64,000 nt of DNA from Draconibacterium sediminis (GTDB lineage Bacteria; Bacteroidota; Bacteroidia; Bacteroidales; Prolixibacteraceae): NCBI RefSeq assembly GCF_000949475.1, contig NZ_JRHC01000006.1, forward strand, positions 186,001 through 250,000. The letters run 5' to 3'. Below the pieces are notes generated by a model. It had not been told where the DNA came from. It saw only the letters and a list, made by a program, of their open reading frames with translations, and did no database searches. A program made the position numbers and the translations under genes. This document shows, one piece after another, positions 49,524 to 64,000 of this stretch. Every line of letters begins with the position of its first letter. Position 1 is the first letter of the stretch.

Positions 49524-50357
49524 TTAAACCAACTCAAAAAACAGCTTTTGCAACAAACGTGTTATTTCGCCAGGTTTTCCGTTACCAAGCAACTGATCTT
49601 CGATTTGCACCACCGGACAAATTTCGCTACCTGTACCTGCGATAAAAACTTCGTCCATTTCGTAAAGTTCTTCTTCGGAGTACGGGCGCTCCTCAACCGG
49701 AATGTTATTGGCCGCGCACAGTTCCATGATAACTTTTCGGGTAATTCCCGGTAAAATCAGGTTTGATAAAGGCCGTGTTACCACAATGCCATTTTTTACA
49801 CAAAGTACGCTGGAATGCGTAGCTTCGGTAACCTTTCCGTCGCGGATAAGAATACACTCGCCTGCCCCGCTTTGGTGCGCTTCGTTATAAAGCATGGTAT
49901 TGGGCAGCAACGAAACTGATTTAATATCGCAGCGTTGCCAGCGAATATCGTCGCGGGTAATTACTTTAATTCCGTTCTCCAGTTTTTCTGTAGCCGAAGG
50001 CAGATCAAAAGCATAGGCATAAACGGTTGGTGCAATCTCATCAGGGAAATGATGCGAACGTTTGGCTGTGCCCCGCGATATTTGCAGGTAAATTCCGGCA
50101 TGTTTGTCAGCCATATCGTTTTTCTGAATCAACTCCATAAATACTGCTTCAAGTTTTTCAGTATCGTATTCAATACCAATCTCTTTTAAACTGCGGTTCA
50201 GGCGGTCTAAATGATCCTGGAAACGAAAAGCCTTGCCATAATAATATTTGGCTACTTCGTAAACACCGTCGGCAAACAGAAATCCCCGGTCGTTTGGTGA
50301 AATCTTTGCTTCATCGGCTGCTACATATTCTCCGTTCAGATAAACGATATTGCTCAT
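49524..50357 (-). CDS. Class IV aminotransferase, D-amino-acid transaminase-like
   Basis: 277-aa fold-type IV PLP enzyme. Catalytic Lys146 lies in 'RWQRCDIKSVSLLPN', a sequence typical of D-alanine/D-amino-acid transaminases rather than branched-chain ones. 'SPNDRGFLFADGVYE' near residue 20 and 'EATHSSV', 'LPGITR' and 'EVFIAGTGSEICPV' complete the active site. Likely makes D-Glu or D-Ala for peptidoglycan, or deaminates D-amino acids; aminodeoxychorismate lyase is a weaker alternative. Confidence 0.88.
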   Translation of the reverse strand: MSNIVYLNGEYVAADEAKISPNDRGFLFADGVYEVAKYYYGKAFRFQDHLDRLNRSLKEIGIEYDTEKLEAVFMELIQKNDMADKHAGIYLQISRGTAKRSHHFPDEIAPTVYAYAFDLPSATEKLENGIKVITRDDIRWQRCDIKSVSLLPNTMLYNEAHQSGAGECILIRDGKVTEATHSSVLCVKNGIVVTRPLSNLILPGITRKVIMELCAANNIPVEERPYSEEELYEMDEVFIAGTGSEICPVVQIEDQLLGNGKPGEITRLLQKLFFELV

Positions 50358-50423
50358 AATTATAATCGGGTTGAATTGAAACTCAAAAATAGAAAAACTT
50401 TGAATTTTGGTCTTCTAAAAAAC

Positions 50424-50453
50424 AAAAAGGGATTCAACTTAATGAACCCCTTT
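50424..50453 (-). terminator. terminator of the RRM gene
   Basis: AAAGGGATTCA / TGAACCCCTTT (one G-T pair) with a T run on the minus strand; 30 bases beyond the stop at 50484. Confidence 0.8.
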
Positions 50454-50483
50454 CCTATATTATCAAAAAATTCTTTTCTGATC

Positions 50484-50804
50484 CTAGTAACGGTCACGAC
50501 GTCCGTAACCACCACCGCCACCACGGTTGTAACCACCGCCGCCACCGCCACGGTTGTTGTTTTCGCGAGGTTTTGATTCGTTAACTTTAATGTTACGACC
50601 TGCAACCTCAGCGTTGTTCAATTCTTCGATAGCTTTGTTAGCTTCTGAATCGTCTTCCATTTCAACAAAACCGAAACCTTTGCTTCTTCCAGTAAATTTA
50701 TCCATGATAATTTTAGATGAAGCAACTTCACCATACTCTTCAAAAATTTCTCTCAAATCTTCTTCGCCCATGTTGAAGGGCAAATTTCCAATGTAAATGT
50801 TCAT
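50484..50804 (-). CDS. RNA-binding protein with RRM and glycine-rich tail
   Basis: 106-aa single-RRM protein: RNP2 'IYIGNL' (3-8) and RNP1 'KGFGFVEM' (42-49), then an Asn/Gly/Arg-rich tail like eukaryotic hnRNP-type or cyanobacterial Rbp proteins. In bacteria these are cold- or stress-induced RNA chaperones. The tail is coded by a low-complexity GGN run, which also creates false ORFs on the other strand. A 285-base region upstream holds no other gene. Confidence 0.92.
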   Translation of the reverse strand: MNIYIGNLPFNMGEEDLREIFEEYGEVASSKIIMDKFTGRSKGFGFVEMEDDSEANKAIEELNNAEVAGRNIKVNESKPRENNNRGGGGGGYNRGGGGGYGRRDRY

Positions 50805-51089
50805 TTTATACTATAATTTAAAGTTAATATATCCATCTTACTGATCACCAGAAGAACCAATCAAAATGCATCACGTCCTGGTGTTACTTGAATACAGTAT
50901 AAAATAAGCTTTATTAACGATTGAAATAACGTCGGGAAAAACACAAGAGAGATAAACTGTCCGGTTTATTAATATCAATAAAAAAAGACCAAAATGCTAA
51001 TTGCCAGACTTTTCTAAAAATTAACAGCCCAAAGGTAATTCTTTATTCGAACTAACAAACTAAAATTAACATATTTCTTAAACATACAT

Positions 51090-51803
51090 TTATTCCGCAA
51101 TCAGATCGCGAATTACTGCGCTGGCAATAAAGCCTCCAAACAGTGGTGGCATGTACGAAATGGTTCCTACTGTTGATTTTTTATTCCGGCCTTCCTCGAT
51201 ACGTACGGCCTTTTCATCGATATCCTCGGAAGAGAAAACCACTTTTACGCCCTTTTTAACGCCCAGACGACCAAGCCGTTTTCGCATCATTTTTGCCAGT
51301 TTGCAATTGTGTGATTTTTTAATGTCAGTGATTTCTATTTTCGACGGATCCATTTTTCCACCGGCACCCATCGAACTGATTACACGAAGTTTTAACTGTA
51401 GTGCATGATAAACCAGAAATACCTTTGGCGAGAGCGTATCGATAGCATCAACAACATAATCAAAAGGAGCACTGTTTAAGAGTTCGATGGTCTGCTCATC
51501 GCGGATGTAATCATTTACGATTGTCAATTCCAACTCCGGATTTATATCCATAAAACGTTTTGCCAGGATTTCGGCTTTTGGCTGCCCTTTGGTACTTATA
51601 AGCGCGGGTAATTGACGGTTGCGGTTACTTTCTTCCACCACGTCGCCGTCAACAATGGTCATTTTTCCAATTCCTGCACGACATAATTGTTCTGCCGCAT
51701 AAGCGCCAACTCCACCTAGGCCAACTACCAGTACATTTGCATTTTTAAGTTTGGCCAGTTTTTCTTCTCCTAACAATAACTCAGTTCGTTCTAACCAGTG
51801 CAT
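51090..51803 (-). CDS. tcdA: tRNA threonylcarbamoyladenosine dehydratase TcdA
   Basis: 237-aa E1-like (ThiF/MoeB) enzyme that cyclises t6A at tRNA position 37 to ct6A. 'LVVGLGGVGAYAAEQLCRAG' (Gly28-Gly33 nucleotide loop), 'DGDVVEESNRNRQLPA' and 'VDAIDTLSPK' are the ATP-binding motifs of the family. It acts after TsaD, whose gene starts at the left end of this window. The C-terminal part is normal. Confidence 0.92.
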   Translation of the reverse strand: MHWLERTELLLGEEKLAKLKNANVLVVGLGGVGAYAAEQLCRAGIGKMTIVDGDVVEESNRNRQLPALISTKGQPKAEILAKRFMDINPELELTIVNDYIRDEQTIELLNSAPFDYVVDAIDTLSPKVFLVYHALQLKLRVISSMGAGGKMDPSKIEITDIKKSHNCKLAKMMRKRLGRLGVKKGVKVVFSSEDIDEKAVRIEEGRNKKSTVGTISYMPPLFGGFIASAVIRDLIAE

Positions 51804-51850
51804 TACTCTCTAAAACTAAATTTTCGTGGCGCAAAGAAACAAAATTGTGT

Positions 51851-52540
51851 TTAAATTCTTCCTGGCATCAACGATTTTTCTATCTGGTTAAAGTTGGTCC
51901 ACACCGCCTTTTTAAGCTCCTCAACCGGCATTTCCTTTAAAGCTGCAGCCTGCTGATAAATGGTATCAACATTAAAATCCAGCTCATCGGTCTCGAAGAA
52001 TATTTTATTTAGCGGAAGATATTTAAATGATTTTACGGCTTTTGAATCTTCCCTGAAAAGATTTTTTCCAAACGAAAACAAAAAACCTTTATCTACCAGT
52101 TGTTTTGTAATTTCAACACTACCGTTGTATCCATGCATAATCCAGGGCATAACGGGATTCATTTTTTCGCGGAGTGCAATTACCTCGTTCAACGCTTTCA
52201 CACAATGAATGATTAACGGATATTGATACTCTTCGGCAATAACGGCCTGTGCTTCAAAAACCCGAAGTTGCTCGATAAAATCGCCGCCGTTAATTTTGTC
52301 GAGGCCCGCTTCTCCCACAAAAATTACATGGTCGAATTCAAGTGCTTCCTCTACCATTTGCAGCGCTTCATTATTTTCCTGTTTGCTGCCAAGATGCCAG
52401 GGATGAAGCCCAACCGAATAAAAATTGCGTCCGTTGAAAGCCGCAAATCCGTCGCCCGGAAATATATTTTGTACCGTTATCGTTTCAATTTCGTTATGAA
52501 ACGGATGTGTGTGAATATCGATATAGGGAATTGAACTCAT
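51851..52540 (-). CDS. TatD family metal-dependent hydrolase
   Basis: 229-aa TIM-barrel metallohydrolase. 'YIDIHTHPF' gives His10 and His12, 'GEAGLDK' the glutamate ligand, 'IIHCVKA' the third His, and 'FETD' the final Asp. The 'GLHPW' motif is typical. TatD proteins are DNases or quality-control hydrolases. It is shorter than average (260 aa), lacking some helices. 31 bases after elbB on the same strand; likely co-transcribed with elbB and possibly tcdA. Confidence 0.9.
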   Translation of the reverse strand: MSSIPYIDIHTHPFHNEIETITVQNIFPGDGFAAFNGRNFYSVGLHPWHLGSKQENNEALQMVEEALEFDHVIFVGEAGLDKINGGDFIEQLRVFEAQAVIAEEYQYPLIIHCVKALNEVIALREKMNPVMPWIMHGYNGSVEITKQLVDKGFLFSFGKNLFREDSKAVKSFKYLPLNKIFFETDELDFNVDTIYQQAAALKEMPVEELKKAVWTNFNQIEKSLMPGRI

Positions 52541-52571
52541 AAACCAGTTTTGTTAGCTAAACTCTTCTCAA

Positions 52572-53219
52572 TTACGCCATCTCCAGCATTTTAGCAACCA
52601 CATTTGAAGCGCCATCTGCAATTTGTGTGATCGTAGCATCGAGCATATAACAAGGCGCTGTAATTACTTTGTATTTTTCGTCAACCACAATTTCGCCGTG
52701 TGTGGTGGTAACGTGTGTGGCACCCAATGATTCAAGCGCATCGGCAGTTCCTTTGTCCTGACCAATGGTAAGTTTTACGTCGCCTAAAACTTTTGCAATT
52801 ATTGCGGGCGAAATACACAGTGCTCCCACAGGTTTTTCTGCTTCAACAGTAGCTTTAATGGCTTTCTCAACATCTGGATTTACCTTACAATCGAGGCCAT
52901 CGAAAGCAAATGTGCAAAGGTTTTTAGCAGCACCAAAACCTCCCGGAAAAATAATTGCATCGTAATCGGCAGCTTTATACTCCGACAATGCTTTTATATT
53001 ACCGCGAGCGATGCGGGCAGCTTCTACCAAAACATTACGGGTTTCGGGCATTTCCTCTCCTGAAATATGATTTACCACATGCGCCTGATCCACATCGGGG
53101 GCAAAACACTGATAGGCCGCGCCCTGCTGCGCAATGGCCAATAAAGTTAATGTGGCTTCGTGAATTTCGGCACCGTCATAAACACCATTTCCGGCTAATA
53201 CTACTGCTATATTTTTCAT
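52572..53219 (-). CDS. elbB: Isoprenoid biosynthesis glyoxalase ElbB
   Basis: 215-aa DJ-1/PfpI-like protein with 'VLAGNGVYDGAEIHEA' at the start and the nucleophile elbow 'VGALCISPAI' (Cys about 135), 'IIFPGGFGAAKNL' and 'THGEIVVDEKYKVITAPCYM'. The product is a glyoxalase III-type enzyme named for its effect on early isoprenoid synthesis. Full length. The gene heads the elbB-TatD cluster and stands 76 bases after the metA stop codon. Confidence 0.92.
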   Translation of the reverse strand: MKNIAVVLAGNGVYDGAEIHEATLTLLAIAQQGAAYQCFAPDVDQAHVVNHISGEEMPETRNVLVEAARIARGNIKALSEYKAADYDAIIFPGGFGAAKNLCTFAFDGLDCKVNPDVEKAIKATVEAEKPVGALCISPAIIAKVLGDVKLTIGQDKGTADALESLGATHVTTTHGEIVVDEKYKVITAPCYMLDATITQIADGASNVVAKMLEMA

Positions 53220-53295
53220 TTTATATCCTATTTAATTTTGTATTTCAAAGTTACAAGATAAAAAGTGAATCAGAAAGCCCAACAGTGATCAGTTC

Positions 53296-54213
53296 TTAAC
53301 TAATCTGCTCCAGATCGTATGGTGTTTCCTGGTAAACGTAATAATTCAGCCAGTTGGAGAACAACAGGTTTGCTGTTGATTTCCAGCGCATAACCGGAGT
53401 TTTCGCCGGATCGTTATCCGGATAGTAATTTCTTGGAATTTCGATGGGTAAATTTTTGGCCATATCGCGTTTATACTCCCCGTCCAGAGTGTTTCGTGAA
53501 TATTCAGAATGCCCGGTAATAAACAGCTGCCGTCCGTTTTTGGCTTTTACGATTGACACACCTGCCTCCTCCGAATGTGAAATGACCTGCAGCTCATCCA
53601 CTTTTTCTATGTCACCTTTACGAATTTCGGTATGACGTGAGTGAGGAATAAAAAAGACATCATCAAAACCTCTGAATATTGGTAATGTATTGTCGGACAG
53701 ATGATGCTCGAAAACGCCAAACATTTTTTTGTCGAGCGGATATTTGGGTACCTCGTAATAGTGATACAAAGCCGCCTGCGCTGCCCAGCAAATAAACAAC
53801 GACGAAGTTACGTGATGCTCAGCCCAGTCAAGGATCTCCTTCATTTCATCCCAATAGGTAACCTCCTCAAAATCGAGCTGTTCAACCGGAGCACCGGTAA
53901 TAATCATACCGTCGTACTTTTTGTTTTTCAGTTCATCAAAAGTATCGTAAAACTCACTCATGTGTTGCGATGGCGTATTCTTGGGCGTATGTCCTTTAAT
54001 TTTCAGAAAGTCGATCTCAATCTGTAATGGTGAATTGGATAACAGACGAAGCAGATCAGTTTCTGTTGAAATTTTCAGCGGCATCAGGTTTAAGATCACA
54101 ATTTTTAGTGGTCGGATATCCTGGTGCGATGCCCGCGATGAATCCATTACAAAAATATTCTCCTCGCGAAGAATTTCAATTGCCGGTAATTTGTCGTTTA
54201 TATTTAATGGCAT
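53296..54213 (-). CDS. metA: Homoserine O-acetyltransferase, MetA type
   Basis: 305-aa enzyme making the activated homoserine ester for methionine synthesis. Catalytic Cys142 ('ICWAAQA'), His235 and Glu237 ('FITGHSEYSR') are present. Residue 111, which sets acyl choice, is Glu ('APVEQLDFEEV'), as in the acetyl-CoA-specific Thermotoga-type MetA; succinyl-specific E. coli has Gly. The product should be O-acetylhomoserine, the substrate of MetY, whose gene lies just upstream. ATG 54213 is the family start. It has its own promoter with a palindrome in the spacer. Confidence 0.94.
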   Translation of the reverse strand: MPLNINDKLPAIEILREENIFVMDSSRASHQDIRPLKIVILNLMPLKISTETDLLRLLSNSPLQIEIDFLKIKGHTPKNTPSQHMSEFYDTFDELKNKKYDGMIITGAPVEQLDFEEVTYWDEMKEILDWAEHHVTSSLFICWAAQAALYHYYEVPKYPLDKKMFGVFEHHLSDNTLPIFRGFDDVFFIPHSRHTEIRKGDIEKVDELQVISHSEEAGVSIVKAKNGRQLFITGHSEYSRNTLDGEYKRDMAKNLPIEIPRNYYPDNDPAKTPVMRWKSTANLLFSNWLNYYVYQETPYDLEQIS

Positions 54214-54283
54214 TTTATAGTCGTTTTTTCGTATCAAGAGCACTCGATTCCTTATCTCATCACTCCGTTTTTTTCAGTTCGCG

Positions 54284-54314
54284 CAAAAATAACCAACATT
54301 ATGAATGTTGGAAA
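54284..54314 (-). promoter_or_regulatory. metA promoter with palindromic operator
   Basis: On the minus strand TTTC (54314-54311) and TATTTTTG (54291-54284) are 19 bases apart. The spacer is filled by the perfect inverted repeat CCAACATT-atg-AATGTTGG (54293-54311), placed exactly as a repressor operator would be. A hairpin role in the RNA is the alternative, but it lies upstream of the transcription start. Confidence 0.62.
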
Positions 54315-54319
54315 ATATT

Positions 54320-54354
54320 TATTCACCTGCTAACCCGAAGTCAGCAGGTGAATA
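54320..54354 (-). terminator. hairpin after metY
   Basis: Perfect 12-bp stem TATTCACCTGCT / AGCAGGTGAATA (54320-54331 and 54343-54354) with an 11-base loop, 17 bases after the metY stop. The following minus-strand tract AATATTTT is only moderately T-rich, so it may terminate partly or stabilise the 3' end. Confidence 0.6.
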
Positions 54355-54370
54355 TTCATGAATGATTTTC

Positions 54371-55857
<1,487 letters not shown>

Positions 55858-55892
55858 TCATTCTTTAATAATTGTAACAATTCTATTTATTA

Positions 55893-57206
55893 CTAGAAAA
55901 AAGCCTTATAAACTTCTCTTACACTTTTTTCTTTGTCGGATTCCTGCACCACCAAATAGCTTACAAGGTCGGATGCTCCGGAGCCGCTTAGTATTACATT
56001 AATTTTATTGTTAGCCACCGCAGCAAATATCTTTGCCGACACACCGTAAGCCTGTTGCATTCCATGACCTACAATACCAATCAGCGCCACGTCGTTCACC
56101 ACTTTGATATCAGTAACAGCCGAAAAGCCCAATTTGTGCACGAGTTTTAGTGCTTTTGCACCATTTTCTTTGCTTAAGATAAAATTGATGGACGTTTGCG
56201 AAGTGATCACCGACTTAATATTTAGCCCGGCATCGTTTAACTGGTTGGTAACTTTTGCCAGAATACCCGGTTTTAAACCAACGCCAGGCCCGTCGAGTTT
56301 CAGCAACGAAATATCGTCGGTGCAGGCCACACTTTTTACAATCTGCTCCTCAATGTAGGTTTCGGTGTTGATAACGGTTTGAACTTTGCCCTCAGCAGTT
56401 TCAGCGCTCAGCACCTGTATGGGAATGTGCGCATGTTCCAGCGGTTCCACGGTTCGCGGGTGAAACGAGTAGTGCTCGAAATAAGCCAACTCGCTTGCCT
56501 CTGAATACGTTAGGCGTTGAATGATCTCGGGATTTTCGATAATTGCAGGTTTTGCCCGCTGAAAATCGTTGTCGAGGCCCCAAAGTTTTAGCGTATCGAC
56601 ACCCAATTCTTTGGTCAAAAAAGCTGCTGTATAATCGGCTGCCGTTTTTCCGGTTCGAGCCAGTTTATTGTTCTCGTCGATGCCGTAAGTACCGGGAATC
56701 AGGTAAACACCTTCCTCCAGTTTATTGAGTTTATCTGTATCTACCGAAAGGAAAGTTGCATTTCCAAAATCGGATGACACCCGTAAATCAATATCTTCGG
56801 GATGAATTATACTTGCCTCGTTCCAGAGCGACGACAGAATCTCGACTGACAGTTTTTCAGAAAAACTCAGTACCTGGTCTTTTAAAGCCCGCGAATAATC
56901 GCCGATAAGCCCGATCCCCTTTAGTAATCCAACCAACTGTTTGGCTAATTTTGAATACACTTCAGAGGGCTGCTCATCAACTTTACCGATATAAAATCCG
57001 TATATCTCGTTCAGGATTTCCTCCTCGTCCAATTCTTGCAGAAATACCTGTTGCAGATTAAACTGAACAAGATCGAGCAATTGCGGAATAGCCGAAACCA
57101 CCACATAATTGCGACTTTTGCTGCCCGCTAACCAGGCTTTTAAATTTTGTAATGCTATTTGGTTGCCAATATGGCTTCCACCAAATCGAATAACATTATC
57201 CGACAT
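55893..57206 (-). CDS. Aspartate kinase with altered catalytic residues
   Basis: 437-aa aspartokinase: kinase domain (about 1-285) and two ACT domains (about 295-437) that bind the end-product amino acid. The N-terminal motif KFGGTS reads 'IRFGGSHIG' (Arg7 where Lys is catalytic), the GRGGSDYTAA motif reads 'TGKTAADYTAA' (Lys187 where Arg is expected, Asp191 kept), and the S-x-GE motif reads 'SFSEKLS' (Glu117). The Lys/Arg exchange may be compensatory, or the protein may have become a sensor. Position upstream of metY-metA suggests it feeds methionine synthesis. It has its own promoter and a Met-rich leader ORF. Confidence 0.85.
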   Translation of the reverse strand: MSDNVIRFGGSHIGNQIALQNLKAWLAGSKSRNYVVVSAIPQLLDLVQFNLQQVFLQELDEEEILNEIYGFYIGKVDEQPSEVYSKLAKQLVGLLKGIGLIGDYSRALKDQVLSFSEKLSVEILSSLWNEASIIHPEDIDLRVSSDFGNATFLSVDTDKLNKLEEGVYLIPGTYGIDENNKLARTGKTAADYTAAFLTKELGVDTLKLWGLDNDFQRAKPAIIENPEIIQRLTYSEASELAYFEHYSFHPRTVEPLEHAHIPIQVLSAETAEGKVQTVINTETYIEEQIVKSVACTDDISLLKLDGPGVGLKPGILAKVTNQLNDAGLNIKSVITSQTSINFILSKENGAKALKLVHKLGFSAVTDIKVVNDVALIGIVGHGMQQAYGVSAKIFAAVANNKINVILSGSGASDLVSYLVVQESDKEKSVREVYKAFF

Positions 57207-57256
57207 AAAAATATTTTTTTGAAATTTTGTTTGCTTAATAAACGCTTGTACGGAAT

Positions 57257-57290
57257 GCCTTCAAACAACGAATAACCATCGAATGAAGGC
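57257..57290 (-). promoter_or_regulatory. hairpin between the Met-rich leader and aspartokinase
   Basis: GCCTTCA / TGAAGGC arms (57257-57263 and 57284-57290) with a 20-base loop. Its 5' arm begins in the leader's stop codon, so ribosome position on the leader would control its folding. No T-run follows, so it is not a standard terminator. Confidence 0.45.
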
Positions 57291-57382
57291 TATCGCATAG
57301 ACATAAACATAGACGACATAAACATTGCTCCGCAACGGATTGCTGCGAAAGAAGAAGTAGTATTTCTTTGGTCAATGTTCAT
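57290..57382 (-). CDS. Met-rich 30-codon leader peptide of the methionine locus
   Basis: An ORF from ATG 57382 to TAG 57290 starts 17 bases from the expected transcription start. It begins MNIDQRNTTSSF and ends 'AMFMSSMFMSMR', with Met at positions 20, 22, 25, 27 and 29. Five Met in the last eleven codons, followed at once by a hairpin and then a methionine-pathway gene, is the arrangement of an attenuation leader: at low Met-tRNA a ribosome would stall here. The sequence is also low in complexity (ATGTTTATG repeats), so chance is not excluded. Mechanism (transcriptional, Rho or translational) cannot be seen. Confidence 0.6.
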   Translation of the reverse strand: MNIDQRNTTSSFAAIRCGAMFMSSMFMSMR

Positions 57383-57403
57383 TCTTGCCGAATTTGTTTG
57401 ACG

Positions 57404-57434
57404 CAAATATAAATTGATTTTTGATAAATGCAAG
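57404..57434 (-). promoter_or_regulatory. promoter of the Met leader-aspartokinase transcript
   Basis: On the minus strand CTTG (57434-57431) and TATATTTG (57411-57404) are 19 bases apart. Transcription should begin near 57399, giving a leader of about 190 bases before the aspartokinase ATG at 57206, long compared with other genes here. Confidence 0.65.
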
Positions 57435-57539
57435 CTTATCTGGATTGATTTTAGATAAAGTTTACATTGGGAAACAAAGGATCCGATCCGTATTTATTGC
57501 AGATTCTACGAATCGGATCTCCTGTCTTGGGCTTACCGC

Positions 57540-58100
57540 TTACTCATTATATTGCTCAGGCCCAACAGATATTTTGGTTATGAACACCCCGTTTTTATCT
57601 ACGTATTTATAGTTCATGGTTACCTGGTTCACACGAAATAATTCCATATCGGGGTTGGTTTTTATATTGTTAGTTATTTGCGGAATCAGGTATGCTTCAA
57701 AACTGCTGATATCGATCGAGTCTTTTACCAAAGTCATTAGCGAATAGTTGTACTGAAAAGTATTGTTGGCCATTGCCACAGTATTATCGAGGCGGGTTTC
57801 GGCATCTACCATTAAGGGGCAGGCTTCATTTAATTCGCTGGCGGTTTTCATTAACACCTTATCGAAAGAAAAAACACGCTGCACCAGTTGTTGCACCACA
57901 AAAAAGGCAACTACAAAGGATACTACACTAACAAGCGTAACGATCAACTTCTGTTTGGTTAAACCTTGTGTTTGTTTTGCCACCGGTTGTTCTATGGTTT
58001 CTTTGGGCTCAACTTTTGGCAGTTCGTAACCACAATAGCGGCAGTATTTGGCATTGGTTTTATTGTCTTCGTTACAATGCGTACACTTAACTAGTTCCAT
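57540..58100 (-). CDS. Zinc-ribbon membrane protein of unknown function
   Basis: 186-aa protein from ATG 58100. The N-terminal zinc ribbon has Cys6, Cys9, Cys20 and Cys23 ('CTHCNEDNKTNAKYCRYCG'). One membrane helix follows at about 60-79 ('LIVTLVSVVSFVVAFFVV'), then an external domain of about 105 residues without a known motif. The open frame extends to 58190 but earlier codons lack a zinc-ribbon start. Function unknown. Confidence 0.78.
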   Translation of the reverse strand: MELVKCTHCNEDNKTNAKYCRYCGYELPKVEPKETIEQPVAKQTQGLTKQKLIVTLVSVVSFVVAFFVVQQLVQRVFSFDKVLMKTASELNEACPLMVDAETRLDNTVAMANNTFQYNYSLMTLVKDSIDISSFEAYLIPQITNNIKTNPDMELFRVNQVTMNYKYVDKNGVFITKISVGPEQYNE

Positions 58101-58376
58101 TTTTGTGTTTTTTTGCTCGGTTTGAATTTGATTTCTTCGGATACCAAAGTAGTAATATTTTCGATAAATGGTTTTATGTTTAAGGGACATCTATAGCAAA
58201 TATCTAAACAATACATTTGGGGCGCTTCCCTCATGTAGCTTAATAAAAGATTGTTTCAAATATATTAAGAGGGATTTATACCATCTGACAGACAAACCTT
58301 TAATGAATATTTCAATCCTTAATGAGGTTGAAGTTAACAAAATGTTTTGTAGCTTTGGAAAACAAAAACCAATATT

Positions 58377-59246
58377 ATGACAAAGAAAGCCACCACAACC
58401 ACCACTACTGACGATTCTCGTAAGAAGTGTTTTATCATTTCTCCGCTTGGCGAAGACAATTCTGAAACCAGAAGAAAAGCTGACGGTTTAATTAATGCGG
58501 TTTTAAGACCAGTTCTTGAAAAACTGGATTTTTGCGCAATTGCACCGCACGATATAGACACTCCCGGATCGATAACTAAACAGGTCATTAAACATCTGCT
58601 TGAAGATGATCTTGTAATTGCGAATTTAACCGATTTGAATCCAAATGTAATGTATGAATTAGCCGTCCGGCATGCCAAAAGATTGCCGGTTGTTACAGTA
58701 ATAGAAAAGGGCACCAAGTTACCTTTTGATATTGCTGCAGAGCGGACAATATTTTATGACGATGACATGGCAGGAGTTGAGAAGCTAAAACCGTTATTAG
58801 AAGCTGCAATTACAGAAGCTTTAAAAGAAAAATCCCCTGATAATCCTATCTATTCAACCATTCAGGACAATATTATTAGAGAGGTTGCATCAACAGATAG
58901 TACGCAAACTTATATATTAAATAGATTGGATGCTCTTACTAGTCAAATTAGTAGATTTAATAATCAAAATTTAAATCCATTCGTAAAAACAACTTCATCA
59001 ACAGATTTAGAGATTACGATTTCTGGATTTGATAAAGGAGTTAGACAAACTGAGGTTCTAAGTATCATAGCAAATGTCATTTCAAATGATCAATATGAAA
59101 GTATGAGAGTAATTGATGCCACTAAAAATGGAACGACTTTTAGAGTATTAATATCTAAAGTTCAATCACCTAATCACGCTAAGGCTATTGTTAATATACT
59201 TAGAAATTCGGATTTTTCAGTTGAAGCTTTCGCCATAATCAATTAA
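58377..59246 (+). CDS. TIR/nucleoside-deoxyribosyltransferase-like protein
   Basis: 289-aa soluble protein. Residues 17-128 match the alpha/beta nucleotide-binding domain related to nucleoside 2-deoxyribosyltransferases and TIR-like NADases: 'CFIISPLG' opens the fold and 'DLVIANLTDLNPNVMYELAVRHA' contains the conserved Glu94 in the N-x-x-Y-E-L motif, the usual catalytic residue. 'LPFDIAAERTIFYDDD' closes it. Residues 150-289 are unfamiliar, with a coiled-coil-like 'STQTYILNRLDALTSQISRFN' and a final alpha/beta piece. Codons in this second half are distinctly more AT-rich. Domains of this type occur in phage-defence and signal-nucleotide proteins; that role is inference, and no partner gene is adjacent. 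Confidence 0.7.
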   Translation: MTKKATTTTTTDDSRKKCFIISPLGEDNSETRRKADGLINAVLRPVLEKLDFCAIAPHDIDTPGSITKQVIKHLLEDDLVIANLTDLNPNVMYELAVRHAKRLPVVTVIEKGTKLPFDIAAERTIFYDDDMAGVEKLKPLLEAAITEALKEKSPDNPIYSTIQDNIIREVASTDSTQTYILNRLDALTSQISRFNNQNLNPFVKTTSSTDLEITISGFDKGVRQTEVLSIIANVISNDQYESMRVIDATKNGTTFRVLISKVQSPNHAKAIVNILRNSDFSVEAFAIIN

Positions 59247-59704
59247 ATAATCCAAATATCGAAGAAACTACCATAGATAAGAGTTAAACAAGTACTAACT
59301 AACCAATTTTAAATCCACACAAAGTAAGCAACGTACATATTAGCGCCCTTTTCCTCCCTTCCCCACGCAACAACTGCCCATCGCAAACAGTTAATACACC
59401 CTGCCCATAAGACAAATGCCTGTATAAAACCTGTTTGCCAACGTCCCCATGTCATGGGGAAGGCTTCAAACCGATTTTTTACCGCCACCATGCGGCCGAT
59501 ATGGGTGTAAAACTTGTTTTTTGCCGAGCCCACAACTTAGATCATGGTCTCAAATGGTTTTTACACAGGCATTAAAAACGTGGGCATATAAGGTATTGCC
59601 TTTCATGATGCAACCAGGCGAACAACATTCATCAAAAACATTTTTGAAGTAAATAATCGCCTCCTGTTTTAAACAAAAGTTTGCTGCACAACATATATTC
59701 AGGC
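59247..59704. other. intergenic region with inverted repeats
   Basis: Nearly 460 bp without a credible gene. AATGCCTGTATAAAACC (59415-59431) faces GGTTTTTACACAGGCATT (59556-59573) as an imperfect inverted pair bracketing 159 bp, within which CCCCATG / CATGGGG (59445-59451 and 59453-59459) forms a perfect palindrome. It could be a small mobile relic or a structured RNA. The local GC varies sharply, as in accessory DNA. Confidence 0.4.
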
Positions 59705-59736
59705 CTTGACTTGACTTAATATATCGTTTAGTTTTG
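59705..59736 (+). promoter_or_regulatory. promoter of the DUF6261 gene
   Basis: CTTG at 59705-59708 and TAGTTTTG at 59729-59736 are 20 bases apart. The -7 box lies within GTTTA / TAAAC, a small palindrome that could be an operator. A leader of about 90 bases follows, containing the direct repeat ACAAATTCAT twice. Confidence 0.55.
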
Positions 59737-59829
59737 TTAAACACTTAAAAACCACAAGCGTACAACATCCACAAATTCATACACATATAAATAATCAACA
59801 CACATTTCAATTAAACTCACAAATTCATC

Positions 59830-60594
59830 ATGACAAAAATTAAAAATGTAGTATTTAGTCGTTTCCGCAATAACGACCATTATCAGTTTATAACTGAATT
59901 CAAAACCCGAATTGACACGGTCACTCCGGCAATTTTAAACATTGAAACAAAAATGCCCGATTTCAATACAGCTTACGATGCAATGGATACGGTATACAAG
60001 AAGAGCAACAGTAGTGATTTTACTCCCCTCATTGGAGGTGCCGACGTACGACGCGACCGTTATTGGAGTGCGATATACATGCGTCTGCGATCAACCCTGA
60101 TGGGGCCAATCGAAAGCGAGGTTGAGGCCGCTGAAAAACTAAAAGCCCTTTTTGATTTACATGGCAACGTGCGCCAAATGCCTTTAAAAGGCGAATCGGC
60201 TGCACTTACCAATCTTATTCAGGATCTTGAAAGCCGTGACTTTGGTGGCTATTGTAACACCGTGGGCATCCTGCCCTGGATTGAGGCATTAAAAACCGAA
60301 AATCTGTTGGTGCAAAACCTGATGGAAGAACGTCGTCAGGAATCGGTAAACCAAAACAGTGAAGATTATAAGCTGTTGCGTAAAGCTGTTGACATTGCTT
60401 ACGAAAATATTGTTTCGCGAATAAATGCACTTGTTGAGCTGGAAATGTCGACACCCGAAATTGAAAATTTTATTGAATTAACAAATAATCAGATAACCGA
60501 CTACGAAAACGAACTTACGGCCCGTCAGGGACGTCTTGACAGTGAACAGGAAGAAGAGGAGCCAATAACTCCTGCTCCTGATGTAGAAGCATAA
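59830..60594 (+). CDS. DUF6261 family protein
   Basis: 254-aa, mostly helical, acidic protein resembling the DUF6261 family of Bacteroidota ('FSRFRNNDHYQFITEFKTRID' near the start, 'DRYWSAIYMRLRSTLMGPIESE' in the middle). Residues 170-235 are likely coiled coil, and the tail is Glu/Pro-rich ('QEEEEPITPAPDVEA'). No enzyme motif or signal peptide. Such genes often occur in many copies; none is seen elsewhere in this window. Own promoter and terminator, so a single-gene unit. Confidence 0.75.
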   Translation: MTKIKNVVFSRFRNNDHYQFITEFKTRIDTVTPAILNIETKMPDFNTAYDAMDTVYKKSNSSDFTPLIGGADVRRDRYWSAIYMRLRSTLMGPIESEVEAAEKLKALFDLHGNVRQMPLKGESAALTNLIQDLESRDFGGYCNTVGILPWIEALKTENLLVQNLMEERRQESVNQNSEDYKLLRKAVDIAYENIVSRINALVELEMSTPEIENFIELTNNQITDYENELTARQGRLDSEQEEEEPITPAPDVEA

Positions 60595-60616
60595 AAGTGT
60601 AGGATTTGTGGAGAAC

Positions 60617-60646
60617 AAAAGGCATTCTGTGAGGGATGCCTTTTTT
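60617..60646 (+). terminator. terminator of the DUF6261 gene
   Basis: AAAAGGCAT / ATGCCTTTT (60617-60625 and 60636-60644), then T-rich. Confidence 0.88.
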
Positions 60647-60784
60647 GGTAGTTACTGCTTGCTATTGCTACAATTTTACCTCCGATATATTAGAAACTCT
60701 TTAAAGTACATACGCGTAAATACAAGAAGAATTGGTGTTTCTGAATTTATTTAGGCGAAACAGGAACAGAAAACTGGAGGAATT

Positions 60785-62092
60785 ATGGAGATTAAATTCG
60801 ATCCCTTACGCCGGTTTATAAAAATTAAATCACTGAGCAGCATTTGTATGCTTATGGCTGCCATTGCGGCGCTTGTCGTCTCCAATACCAACCTGCACAC
60901 TTACTATGAACAATTCTTAGAGCTGGAATTTTTAATTGGTTTCTCCCGGTTCCACTTATCAAAATCGGTACTGCACTGGATTAACGATGGTTTAATGACC
61001 ATTTTCTTCTTTGTTATCGGGCTGGAAATAAAACGCGAATTTCTGATCGGAGAACTCAGTTCGGCGCGAAAAGCCATACTGCCCATATTTGCGGCTATTG
61101 GCGGAATGATCTTCCCCATTGCCATCTTTTTTTTGATGAACTCAGGAAAAGAAGGTACACATGGCTGGGGAATAACCATGGCTACCGATATTGCTTTTTC
61201 GTTAGGAGTACTGGGCATACTGGGGAAAAAAGTTCCTTTTGGCCTCACCATTTTCCTGGCGGCCTTTGCCATTATCGACGATTTGGGCGCAGTATTGGTT
61301 ATTGCAGTTTTCTACAGTTCGCTAATATACTGGCACCTGGTAGCTATTGCATTTGTCCTGTTAATTGGGTTGTCGCTTTTATCGGTAAAAAACTTCTATT
61401 CCAGGTATATCTATATTCCTGTCGGGCTGGTAATCTGGCTGCTGTTTTTAGAGTCGGGCATACACCCCACTATTGCCGGTGTGCTTTTTGCGTTTACCAT
61501 TCCTTCGCATCGTAGAAAAAGGCTTATCGAAGTTATAGGAAAAGGGAAAAATGCCCTTAACGAGTTATCTCAGCTAATCGGGCAAAAAGTAGTTGAATTT
61601 AAACATCATAAAACCGCTATTAACATTCTCGATAATATAACCTCCGAAATTCAATCGCCATTGCAACATTTGCAAAACAAACTTGGCACAATGGTTTCTT
61701 TTTTAATTATTCCGCTATTTGCTTTTGCCAATTCGGGTATAAATTTTATTGGCGACGAAGGTGCTTTTACTCCGCTTTCCGTCAGCATTGCCGTTAGTTT
61801 GGTTTTTGGTAAAATAATTGGGATAAGCTTATTTTCATGGCTGGCCATAAAACTTAAAATTGCGGTACTGCCCAAAAATGTCGACTTCCGGCAGATTTTT
61901 GGATTATCCTGCCTTGGTGGTTTTGGCTTTACGATGTCGATTTTTATCTCCAACCTCTCCTATGAGTCGGTTCATTTACAAGACTCGGCAAAGTTGGGAA
62001 TACTTATCGGCTCACTGGTTGCAGGTGTTAGCGGGTATTTGGTTATTCGGTATGCGCTTAAGAGAAGTGCACTATCAGCAAATCGCCAGTGA
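60785..62092 (+). CDS. nhaA: Na+/H+ antiporter NhaA
   Basis: 435-aa inner-membrane antiporter with about 12 helices. 'FFFVIGLEIKREFLIGELSS' and 'TDIAFSLGVLGILG' belong to the conserved core, and the paired aspartates 'AIIDDLGAVL' are the cation-binding site. A cytoplasmic loop of about 55 residues near the middle ('SHRRKRLIEVIGKGKNALNELS' onward) is longer than in E. coli NhaA and typical of Bacteroidota. It exports Na+ at alkaline pH. It converges with the MDR gene. Confidence 0.93.
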   Translation: MEIKFDPLRRFIKIKSLSSICMLMAAIAALVVSNTNLHTYYEQFLELEFLIGFSRFHLSKSVLHWINDGLMTIFFFVIGLEIKREFLIGELSSARKAILPIFAAIGGMIFPIAIFFLMNSGKEGTHGWGITMATDIAFSLGVLGILGKKVPFGLTIFLAAFAIIDDLGAVLVIAVFYSSLIYWHLVAIAFVLLIGLSLLSVKNFYSRYIYIPVGLVIWLLFLESGIHPTIAGVLFAFTIPSHRRKRLIEVIGKGKNALNELSQLIGQKVVEFKHHKTAINILDNITSEIQSPLQHLQNKLGTMVSFLIIPLFAFANSGINFIGDEGAFTPLSVSIAVSLVFGKIIGISLFSWLAIKLKIAVLPKNVDFRQIFGLSCLGGFGFTMSIFISNLSYESVHLQDSAKLGILIGSLVAGVSGYLVIRYALKRSALSANRQ

Positions 62093-62120
62093 ATTTAGTC
62101 TATTTGTTGTACAAATTGGC

Positions 62121-63107
62121 TTAAGCATTTTGCGCATCAACTATAACCACAACATTACCTTTTTTATGCCCTGATGCAATGTAACGATGTGCCTCAGAAA
62201 TCTTTTCCAACGGATACTGCCGATCGATTACTGTTTTTAAACGGCCTTCTTTAAACATAGGCACAAGTTGAGCAAAAAGATCACGGAGCTCTGTTTCGGA
62301 GCGCAGACCTGTTGCCGCAAATTTGGCTTTCTTTTTTGCAAATACTTTTGTCCATAACATTTGCAACAGCAACGAGAATTTTAATATCGGCGACACGTAT
62401 TGTCCTGATTCAGTGAGAATATTTTTACTTTTTGCATACGAGCTTTTCCCAACAGTATCAAAAACAAGGTCGTATTTTATATTCCCTCGGCTGAAATCCT
62501 CTTTGTTATAATCAATAACATGATCGGCTCCAAGCGATTTTACCAGCCCCACATTTCGTGTACTGCAAACACCGGTAACCCAGGCCCCCATAAACTTTGC
62601 AATTTGTACTGCTGCAGTTCCCAAACTTCCCGAGGCTCCGTTAATCAATACTTTATCGTTTGGTTTAATTTGTGCAATCTCTTTGAGAAAATTCAAGGAG
62701 GTTACATGCCCGTCGCCATAGGTTGCTGCTTCGGCATAGGTCATATTATCGGGCATCGGCAGAATTACACCGTCCTCAGGTACTGCAACATATTCGGCAT
62801 TGGTACTCATTACTAAAGTGGTCTCACCAAACACCCGGGTTCCGAGAATAAATTTGTTGGTATTTAATCCTGTTTCAACGATATAACCGGCAAAACCTGT
62901 ACCGGGGATTTGATGTTTGGGCTTTCGTAATCCGGTTATTAACCGCCCGAAGTATGGTTTTCCTGATCGCATCATTTCATCGGCTGTTGTTGCCGAAGTG
63001 GCTATTACTTTTACCAGCACCTCATTTTCTTTAGGGCTGGGTTTGGGCATACTTTTAATTTGAAGTACTTCAGGACCTCCGTAACCGCTTGCTACAATTG
63101 CTTTCAT
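62121..63107 (-). CDS. Medium-chain NAD(P)-dependent oxidoreductase
   Basis: 328-aa zinc-free MDR enzyme close to quinone oxidoreductases. N-terminal GroES-like domain ('MKAIVASGYGGPEVLQIKSMP'), Rossmann 'GASGSLGTAAVQIAK' near 150-164, and 'TDYGLRK'-like catalytic segments replaced by 'GDGHVTSLNFLKEIA'. No structural zinc cysteine cluster is present. ATG 63107 gives the classical MKAIV start; ATG 63119 adds four residues. Expected to reduce quinones or enals with NADPH. It is downstream of, and on the same strand as, an AraC regulator, which may control it. Confidence 0.9.
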   Translation of the reverse strand: MKAIVASGYGGPEVLQIKSMPKPSPKENEVLVKVIATSATTADEMMRSGKPYFGRLITGLRKPKHQIPGTGFAGYIVETGLNTNKFILGTRVFGETTLVMSTNAEYVAVPEDGVILPMPDNMTYAEAATYGDGHVTSLNFLKEIAQIKPNDKVLINGASGSLGTAAVQIAKFMGAWVTGVCSTRNVGLVKSLGADHVIDYNKEDFSRGNIKYDLVFDTVGKSSYAKSKNILTESGQYVSPILKFSLLLQMLWTKVFAKKKAKFAATGLRSETELRDLFAQLVPMFKEGRLKTVIDRQYPLEKISEAHRYIASGHKKGNVVVIVDAQNA

Positions 63108-63356
63108 CATTTCTTTCATCTTTTCTGTTTTGTTGTTCTAATTTCTGTTTATTGAAATCATGAAACAAAAGTAGCGCAGGTAGTAATCTCAGTCGTTCGG
63201 GAAAAAAAAATAGAAGTTCGGAATTATAATTGCGGGCTAAAAAGTTAGGGGCAAACACAGCATTCAGCTTAAAAAATACAAATACGACTCATAAGAAGAA
63301 AAACACATACAGAGGTTAACTAATTACCCTCGGCATCCATTCATGCGCAGGAATTT

Positions 63357-64000
63357 TTATGTTTTTAAAACGGCCGATGCCTTATCAAAACCAACCGTTT
63401 CGCGGTAATACTGCGGAGACACTTCGGCATTTTTTTTGAAAAACCGGCTAAAATAATACTCATCGTTATAACCTAAATCGTAAGCAATTTCCTTAACGGT
63501 TTTATTGGTGAGGTACAATTCTCTTTTGGCTTCAATAATTATCCGTTCGGCAATTAGGTCGCTTAAGGTTTTGTTGAAATGCGTTTTTGTAAGCCGGGTT
63601 AATGCTTTTGGTGTTATGGCTAAAAGATCGGCATATTCGCTGGCACTGTGTTTTGTTTTGTAGTGCATTTCAATCGCATTTTTCAGGTTTTGCAAAATAA
63701 ATGGTTCTTCCTCTTTTGCTGTGGTTTGTTGGGCTTCGGTTTGCTGCTCCGTTTTTAGTCGCGATGCCGTGATCAGAAATATTTTTAGGTATGAAATAAG
63801 CAATTCATACTGCGCCAAAGCCGGGTTTTGCATTTCGGCTTTAAACTGTTCAATCACCATCTCAAAATTTGCAGCAGCTTTTTCATCGATGTAAACAAAT
63901 GGAGAATTGTAAATATTATTAAACAAAACACCATGGCATGCAACTTCTTTGTGGTGCTTATGAATACAGAAAAAATCGGGATGAAAATTGATAACCCATC
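63357..64000 (-). CDS. AraC-family transcription regulator, C-terminal part
   Basis: The C-terminal part of an AraC/XylS regulator; the frame is open to the right edge, so the first residues are missing. About 214 codons are visible. 'HPDFFCIHKHHKEVACHGVLF' is the end of the effector-binding beta domain; a linker helix follows; the last 100 residues hold two helix-turn-helix units ('YADLLAITPKALTRLTKTHFNKTLSDLI' and 'VKEIAYDLGYNDEYYFSRFFKKNAEVSP'). The usual 'P..YR' ending is present. Likely binds upstream of the MDR gene 250 bases downstream. Confidence 0.9.
   Translation of the reverse strand, partial: WVINFHPDFFCIHKHHKEVACHGVLFNNIYNSPFVYIDEKAAANFEMVIEQFKAEMQNPALAQYELLISYLKIFLITASRLKTEQQTEAQQTTAKEEEPFILQNLKNAIEMHYKTKHSASEYADLLAITPKALTRLTKTHFNKTLSDLIAERIIIEAKRELYLTNKTVKEIAYDLGYNDEYYFSRFFKKNAEVSPQYYRETVGFDKASAVLKT

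Follow-up and report, generated by a model that had tools for sequence, protein, structure and literature searches.

A conserved methionine-rich leader ORF in front of an aspartokinase-metY-metA operon of Draconibacterium sediminis, a candidate reporter of methionine supply with SAM-I-associated counterparts in relatives

The window analysed here, a 64,000-nucleotide stretch of the Draconibacterium sediminis genome, carries on its minus strand a short methionine-rich ORF in front of an aspartokinase-metY-metA locus, which raises the question of whether this ORF is a translated leader and how it might act on the genes behind it. The leader locus sits between the gene for a zinc-ribbon protein and that for a monofunctional aspartokinase with ACT domains (55893–57206; Pfam PF00696, PF22468 and PF13840), which is followed by metY (O-acetylhomoserine sulfhydrylase, 54371–55738; TIGR01326, 680 bits, cut-off 495) and metA (homoserine O-acetyltransferase, 53296–54243; NF047918, 499 bits, cut-off 460.5). 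The true starts of metY and metA probably lie near 55672 and 54213, respectively, and the aspartokinase is considered divergent, since the NCBIfam aspartate kinase models score under their curated cut-offs. In the direction of transcription, an imperfect inverted repeat (TTTATCTAAAATCAATCCAGATAAG, 57435–57459) directly precedes a promoter-like pair of boxes (57404–57433), TTG (57433–57431) and TATATTTG (57411–57404), which are 19 nt apart and which we take to be the Bacteroidota promoter form. The leader ORF itself (57290–57382) consists of 30 codons, encoding MNIDQRNTTSSFAAIRCGAMFMSSMFMSMR, and a TAG stop. Five of its last eleven codons are Met (codons 20, 22, 25, 27 and 29, at 57325, 57319, 57310, 57304 and 57298), and codons 20–29 form what is called here the Met segment (57296–57325). 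A hairpin of seven outer and six inner pairs (57257–57290) begins with the G of the stop codon, and between this hairpin and the aspartokinase start lies an AAGCGTT/GAGCGTT element (57241–57247) that is kept across the genus (alignment A1). A preliminary description of this DNA had listed the promoter, the 30-codon Met-rich ORF, the hairpin starting in the stop codon and the aspartokinase-metY-metA order, all of which are present in the sequence.

Conservation of the leader was examined in the genus, the family and beyond. The genus set comprised 30 aspartokinase loci, one of which (L030) was left out because it has no upstream DNA; the leader ORF was found in all 29 others, including a locus (L002) with an aspartokinase 97% identical to that of the window. 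These ORFs begin at −174 to −186 and count 30 or 31 codons up to the position of the window's stop, which is lost in three loci (L026, L028 and L029), where the ORF extends 5–6 codons into the hairpin; two further loci (L018 and L023) have an additional, longer upstream start. With a 90-position model (R1), 106 of 140 family genomes and 15 of 23 genera were matched at E values up to 0.1. Thirty-seven of the 40 fetched family matches adjoin an aspartokinase and/or metY gene downstream (assigned by eye from the N-termini, and including both divergent and ordinary-looking aspartokinases); the other three (L103–L105) were false, being the three that were examined out of six weak second matches in family genomes, and have no leader. 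Further copies in the window's own genome were not found with this model, the other matches there having E values of 0.37 or worse. Moreover, a 23-nt pattern (TYTATGNNNATGCGNTAGCCTTC), which occurs once in the window and in none of 100 shuffles, matched 36 stretches in a scan of 84,980 species. This type of ORF end together with the 3' arm of the hairpin was present in 33 of them, 30 of which have the start of an aspartokinase-like gene within 250 nt; the three stretches without the hairpin came from Pseudidiomarina (two) and a member of the Saprospiraceae. By name, the members found in the scan include Draconibacterium, Maribellus, Mariniphaga, Sunxiuqinia, Mangrovibacterium and Gaoshiqia. 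In the comparison of relatives that the preliminary description had proposed, the Met codons, the ORF end and the hairpin are kept while much else drifts, so that a Met-specific leader ORF is well supported.

Evidence for translation was sought in 64 leaders (29 from the genus and 35 from the family), reduced to a non-redundant set of 43 that were less than 80% identical. The 35 family leaders had been selected for an ATG-started open frame, which left out L073 (open, with a GTG start) and L102 (a 14-residue ORF, also omitted from alignment A4). When the start codon and the final ten codons were disregarded, frame 0 was open in 43 of the 43 non-redundant leaders, compared with 10 and 11 in the other two frames, and letter shuffles of the leaders were open 23% of the time. 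The single gap inside the ORF in the genus alignment measures three bases. Met occupied codon −4 in all 64 leaders and also codon −2, the latter, though, being imposed by the search pattern; these are the only Met codons that are invariant across the family, and many classical amino-acid leaders keep more invariant end-product codons than two. Codon −3 was found to encode nine different residues, and the last residue at the usual stop position was Arg in 56 leaders, Gln in six, Cys in one and His in one. The N-terminal part drifts, with only four of 38 columns invariant among 17 leaders, and its single-base codon differences (131 synonymous, 229 non-synonymous) reveal a weak synonymous preference; support for translation therefore comes from the frame, the start, the stop and the positions of the Met codons.

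The leader also displayed a conserved RNA structure. For this, 22 genus sequences were aligned (alignment A1; seven near-identical genus members were omitted) and folded with RNAalifold, which gave three elements: a helix joining the start region to the Met segment, an ORF-internal hairpin and the post-stop hairpin. The first of these pairs segment A, made up of the 5' UTR and the first codons (57369–57404), with the Met segment (57390–57386/57318–57314 and 57381–57373/57327–57319) and is marked by covariation. The consensus structure is paired in 91.3% of the cells, and both sides vary in 16 of its 32 pairs. Its covariation score was 0.350, compared with 0.199 in shuffled alignments (0 of 500 reached 0.350) and at most 0.137 when the structure was slid. 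As this shuffle test is inflated by kinship and the same alignment had supplied the structure, pairing was tested separately across genera by comparing the energy with which each start region pairs with its own Met segment and with the segments of other leaders. In 32 non-redundant leaders without SAM-I, the own pairing averaged −16.4 kcal/mol, which none of 10,000 permutations equalled, and in 31 of the 32 the minimum-energy fold left no more than one base of the start codon unpaired. Five other pairs of regions among the start region, the Met segment, the post-stop hairpin and the downstream leader gave no pairing signal. In the hairpin within the ORF (57330–57348), each of the seven pairs showed one or more two-sided changes, and 85% of the cells were paired. 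The post-stop hairpin, examined in 46 sequences, has an almost invariant outer stem, GCCTTC/GAAGGC (with a few G-U variants and one U-A variant), and a covarying inner stem, and the genus leaders also share conserved 5' nucleotides. The absence of a T-run behind this hairpin, already remarked upon in the preliminary description, was confirmed: a terminator scan returned two sites, both within the ORF, and no intrinsic terminator after the hairpin, for which reason classical attenuation is not established. The idea of attenuation by a Met leader accordingly holds up in part only, in that the Met-specific ORF is well supported by conservation while a refolding attenuator of the classical form is not, neither an intrinsic terminator nor a competing antiterminator pairing having been found.

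Upstream of the leader, ATATTTG was found at −202 to −215 relative to the aspartokinase in 29 of 29 genus loci, and TAnnTTTG precedes the leader's ATG by 28–46 nt in 33 of the 35 family leaders. The two that lack it are the two that have a SAM-I riboswitch (see below), suggesting that the leader of most family members follows straight on from its promoter, with no aptamer between them. The inverted repeat at 57435–57459 is kept in the genus and, as judged by eye, in some other genera, and is possibly an activator site or an upstream promoter element; as it may be bound by a transcription factor, a second control of the operon is conceivable. A regulon under this repeat was considered and rejected, the window's own genome containing a single good copy (one mismatch to the consensus, the next best having three).

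The preliminary description had also remarked on the lack of a SAM riboswitch. This is correct for the window locus, where a search of window positions 50000–64000 against Rfam families, T-box and SAM-I included, gave no match up to E = 1, but not beyond it: the same genome has a SAM-I riboswitch elsewhere, and several relatives have one (RF00162) at this very place, directly 5' of such a leader. In the order-level match L034, from another family, a canonical SAM-I aptamer lies just 5' of a leader ending in SMCMR and a stop codon, in front of an aspartokinase gene; within the window's own family, two of 37 loci (L099 and L101) have SAM-I 5' of the leader. A further search (R2) gave matches at E values up to 0.05 in 37 of 395 phylum genomes and 55 of 393 order genomes. 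Of 43 such loci inspected, ten were taken by eye and 33 were judged to be chance matches; the motif-like L143 overlaps a gene on the opposite strand. The ten loci (L108, L138–L142, L144 and L146–L148) stand before metY, metX, metH or aspartokinase genes, a context that is not independent evidence, since they were picked for having an ORF and a Met gene. SAM-I was present at eight of them (L108, L138, L139, L142, which is the same as L034, L144, L146, L147 and L148), with the leader starting 8–14 nt past the aptamer in seven and 39 nt past it in L148, and was not found at L140, L141 or L033.

A sample was also assembled from SAM-I sites chosen by RF00162 alone, so as not to select by Met content. 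The 70 sites consisted of the genome's own site, 39 of 50 listed sites of the same class and 30 loci (of 38 sites) from an order sample with one genome per genus. An ORF of at least ten codons with its ATG 3–16 nt after the aptamer was found at 30 of the 70 sites, a main gene at that distance at three, and neither at 37. The three main genes, metH-like by eye (L237, L244 and L246), have their own ATG at +12 to +15 behind the aptamer, which fits riboswitch gating of whichever start codon lies there. Twenty-one of the 30 ORFs, starting at +7 to +14, have at least two Met among their final 15 codons, compared with 2.2% of dinucleotide shuffles; the other nine lack this signature. Met made up 13.2% of these codons (vs 1.6%) and Cys 9.5% (vs 3.4%). 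Since the genomes are related and not independent, the p-values (down to about 1e-34) overstate the significance, yet in the order sample alone the signature was still present in 15 of 21 ORFs. As a control, 30 top-scoring SAM-I sites were analysed; 28 came from other classes of the phylum, and one of the other two was already among the 70. An ORF at that distance was found at ten of the 30 and two Met in none of the ten, suggesting that the Met signature is a feature of the window's class, within the sites sampled, and does not simply come with SAM-I; among the 28 sites from outside the class, no SAM-gated Met leader was found.

The single SAM-I site of the window's own genome at E values up to 1e-6 (L194, contig C14, 47792–48952) is followed, 11 nt behind the aptamer, by a Met leader, MKKLHYKLFFTSYLHGANMCMRQRF, that ends in a stop codon in front of a homocysteine biosynthesis gene (Pfam HcyBio). 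The helix between start region and Met segment was absent from 27 SAM-gated leaders picked for Met or Cys, the own pairing averaging −7.35 and mismatched pairing −7.72 kcal/mol. An unusually stable fold at the stop codon (z below −1.5) was found in 27–40% of 30 SAM-gated leaders at offsets of −6 to +6, compared with 7–20% elsewhere, and the post-stop hairpin is therefore not universal among them. Arg followed an internal Met in 21 of 61 cases, as opposed to 36 of 851 elsewhere (30 SAM-gated ORFs among L194–L263), and all 21 Arg codons were CGN, which suggests that the peptide or the AUGCGN string has a role beyond what Met-tRNA sensing explains. Cys-rich or Cys/Met-rich short ORFs were seen behind SAM-I at L208, L214, L221, L223, L224 and L229, one of them ending in MQQPCCMCICCPCC and a stop codon; they are possibly a Cys-sensing version of the same design. 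In genome G052 (L258), an aspartokinase sharing 39% identity with that of the window is preceded by SAM-I at a distance of about 390 nt, with no leader ORF at the usual spacing.

These observations have to be weighed against other readings of the locus. The simplest, that the ORF is a chance product of low complexity, draws on the short ATGTTTATG repeat of the window copy, to which the preliminary description had cautiously traced the Met codons; it is contradicted by 66 loci with diverged sequence and by the specificity of the pattern among 84,980 species, and was rejected as having a negligible probability. A gene for a small protein acting in trans would account for the conserved in-frame ORF, the promoter-like box and the conserved C-terminus, but hardly for the drifting N-terminus, the attachment to the same operon in 66 loci or the RNA structure laid over the ORF, and we regard it as very improbable. 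Strong covariation across the whole leader, together with the conserved 5' nucleotides and the occupation of a place where some relatives have SAM-I, would suit a structured RNA sensor, that is, some new aptamer of which the ORF is merely a by-product. This is improbable given a frame that is open in every non-redundant leader, a lone in-ORF gap of three bases, Met codons that recur in unrelated leaders and the lack of any Rfam match up to E = 1.

An arrest peptide comes closer to what is seen, although we consider it unlikely too. Here, with Met, SAM or a related compound bound, a nascent chain ending in M-x-M-R would halt its ribosome on the stop codon, where this ribosome would mask the 5' arm of the hairpin, with no readout of tRNA charging; TnaC and SpeFL are leaders of this type, with invariant residues and a ligand-induced stall. 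The predominance of Arg as the last residue (56 of 64 leaders, with Gln in six), the roughly eightfold enrichment of Arg after Met in the 30 leaders sampled through SAM-I, with CGN codons throughout, and a hairpin that starts exactly within the stop codon are in line with such a mechanism. Against it, the last residue can also be Gln, Cys or His and codon −3 is free, the Cys-rich versions behind other SAM-I sites fit codon sensing better, and the RNA helix may account for part of the constraint on the C-terminus.

At the level of sequence, comparison across the relatives establishes the ORF, its Met codons, both structures and the exchange of aptamer for self-pairing. The explanation that we favour as probable is that the leader ORF acts in cis, signalling the supply of methionine to the aspartokinase-metY-metA operon, and that it is gated by its own helix here and by SAM elsewhere. 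When Met-tRNA is scarce, a ribosome would wait on the Met codons and keep the Met segment open, leaving the leader start codon free for more ribosomes, and the operon would stay expressed. When Met is plentiful, ribosomes would clear the Met segment, which could then refold onto the start codon and silence the leader; an untranslated leader would end in premature (perhaps Rho-dependent) termination or in poor expression, so that full expression of the operon would require translation of the leader. Because no intrinsic terminator was found, Rho-dependent termination is favoured for the step from leader to operon, by analogy with CruR and the mycobacterial cys leaders discussed below. In many other members of the class, SAM-I takes the place of the self-gating helix: between its aptamer and the start codon of a Met- or Cys-rich leader lie 7–14 nt, and at high SAM it would close this codon. 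The window's lineage represents the aptamer-less form of the design. More tentatively, and with somewhat less than even confidence, the class may use a two-input sulfur gauge in which SAM-I gates the leader and the Met or Cys codons read tRNA charging; in the window's family the self-gate, with its Met segment folded back on the start codon, would have replaced the aptamer, and a stalled ribosome would keep the leader open.

Leader-peptide control, Cys leaders without a terminator and pairs of riboswitch and uORF are each already known separately. If the above is true, Met-specific leader control would exist in Bacteroidota, operating without any intrinsic terminator that we could find; a metabolite sensor (for SAM) and a charged-tRNA sensor (for Met or Cys) would be coupled in one RNA; a riboswitch would be replaceable by a helix made of the leader's own codons; and the target of many SAM-I riboswitches of the class would be a leader's start codon and not the enzyme gene.

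The trp, his and thr attenuators consist of a short leader ORF with codons for the end product and an RNA structure near its stop. The window leader resembles them as an ORF with end-product codons placed before biosynthetic genes, with structure near the stop; unlike them, it has no intrinsic terminator, its helix joins the Met segment to the start region, and it is Met-specific and found in Bacteroidota. Within this phylum, whose mRNAs are described as lacking Shine-Dalgarno sequences in the part consulted of PMC6847099, leader-like sORFs occur in 5' UTRs of B. thetaiotaomicron, for example BT_4401 (PMC7366714, in excerpt). No Bacteroidota Met leader is named in the portions covered of PMC2965389 and PMC3766115, and those of PMC6429828, PMC6230763 and PMC9373788 mention neither a Met leader nor a combination of SAM-I and leader in this phylum. 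More generally, a Bacteroidota Met leader, SAM-I gating of a leader and an aptamer-less self-gate were not found among the literature matches listed, which were partial texts and included few subscription journals.

Closer parallels come from other bacteria, again as far as the consulted sections of the papers go. The leaders of mycobacterial cys operons have Cys codons near the stop and no terminator, and their authors suggest Rho (PMC1262725). They share with the window leader the sulfur amino-acid codons close to the stop and the lack of a detectable terminator, and differ in having Cys instead of Met, no conserved terminator hairpin and no riboswitch partner, and in belonging to another phylum (PMC1262725). 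In the copper-responsive uORF CruR, stalling is tied to Rho-dependent termination before the next gene (PMC9426467); there, in contrast to the Met leader, the signal is not amino-acid supply but copper, sensed by a CXXC motif in the nascent protein (PMC9426467). In M. tuberculosis, a B12 riboswitch and a short translated uORF jointly control one gene, as described for metE and ppe2 (PMC11260477). Although these pairs respond to another ligand and carry no end-product codon signature, and although the window locus itself has no riboswitch, they resemble the SAM-I/leader design of the relatives in that a riboswitch and a uORF act on one gene (PMC11260477).
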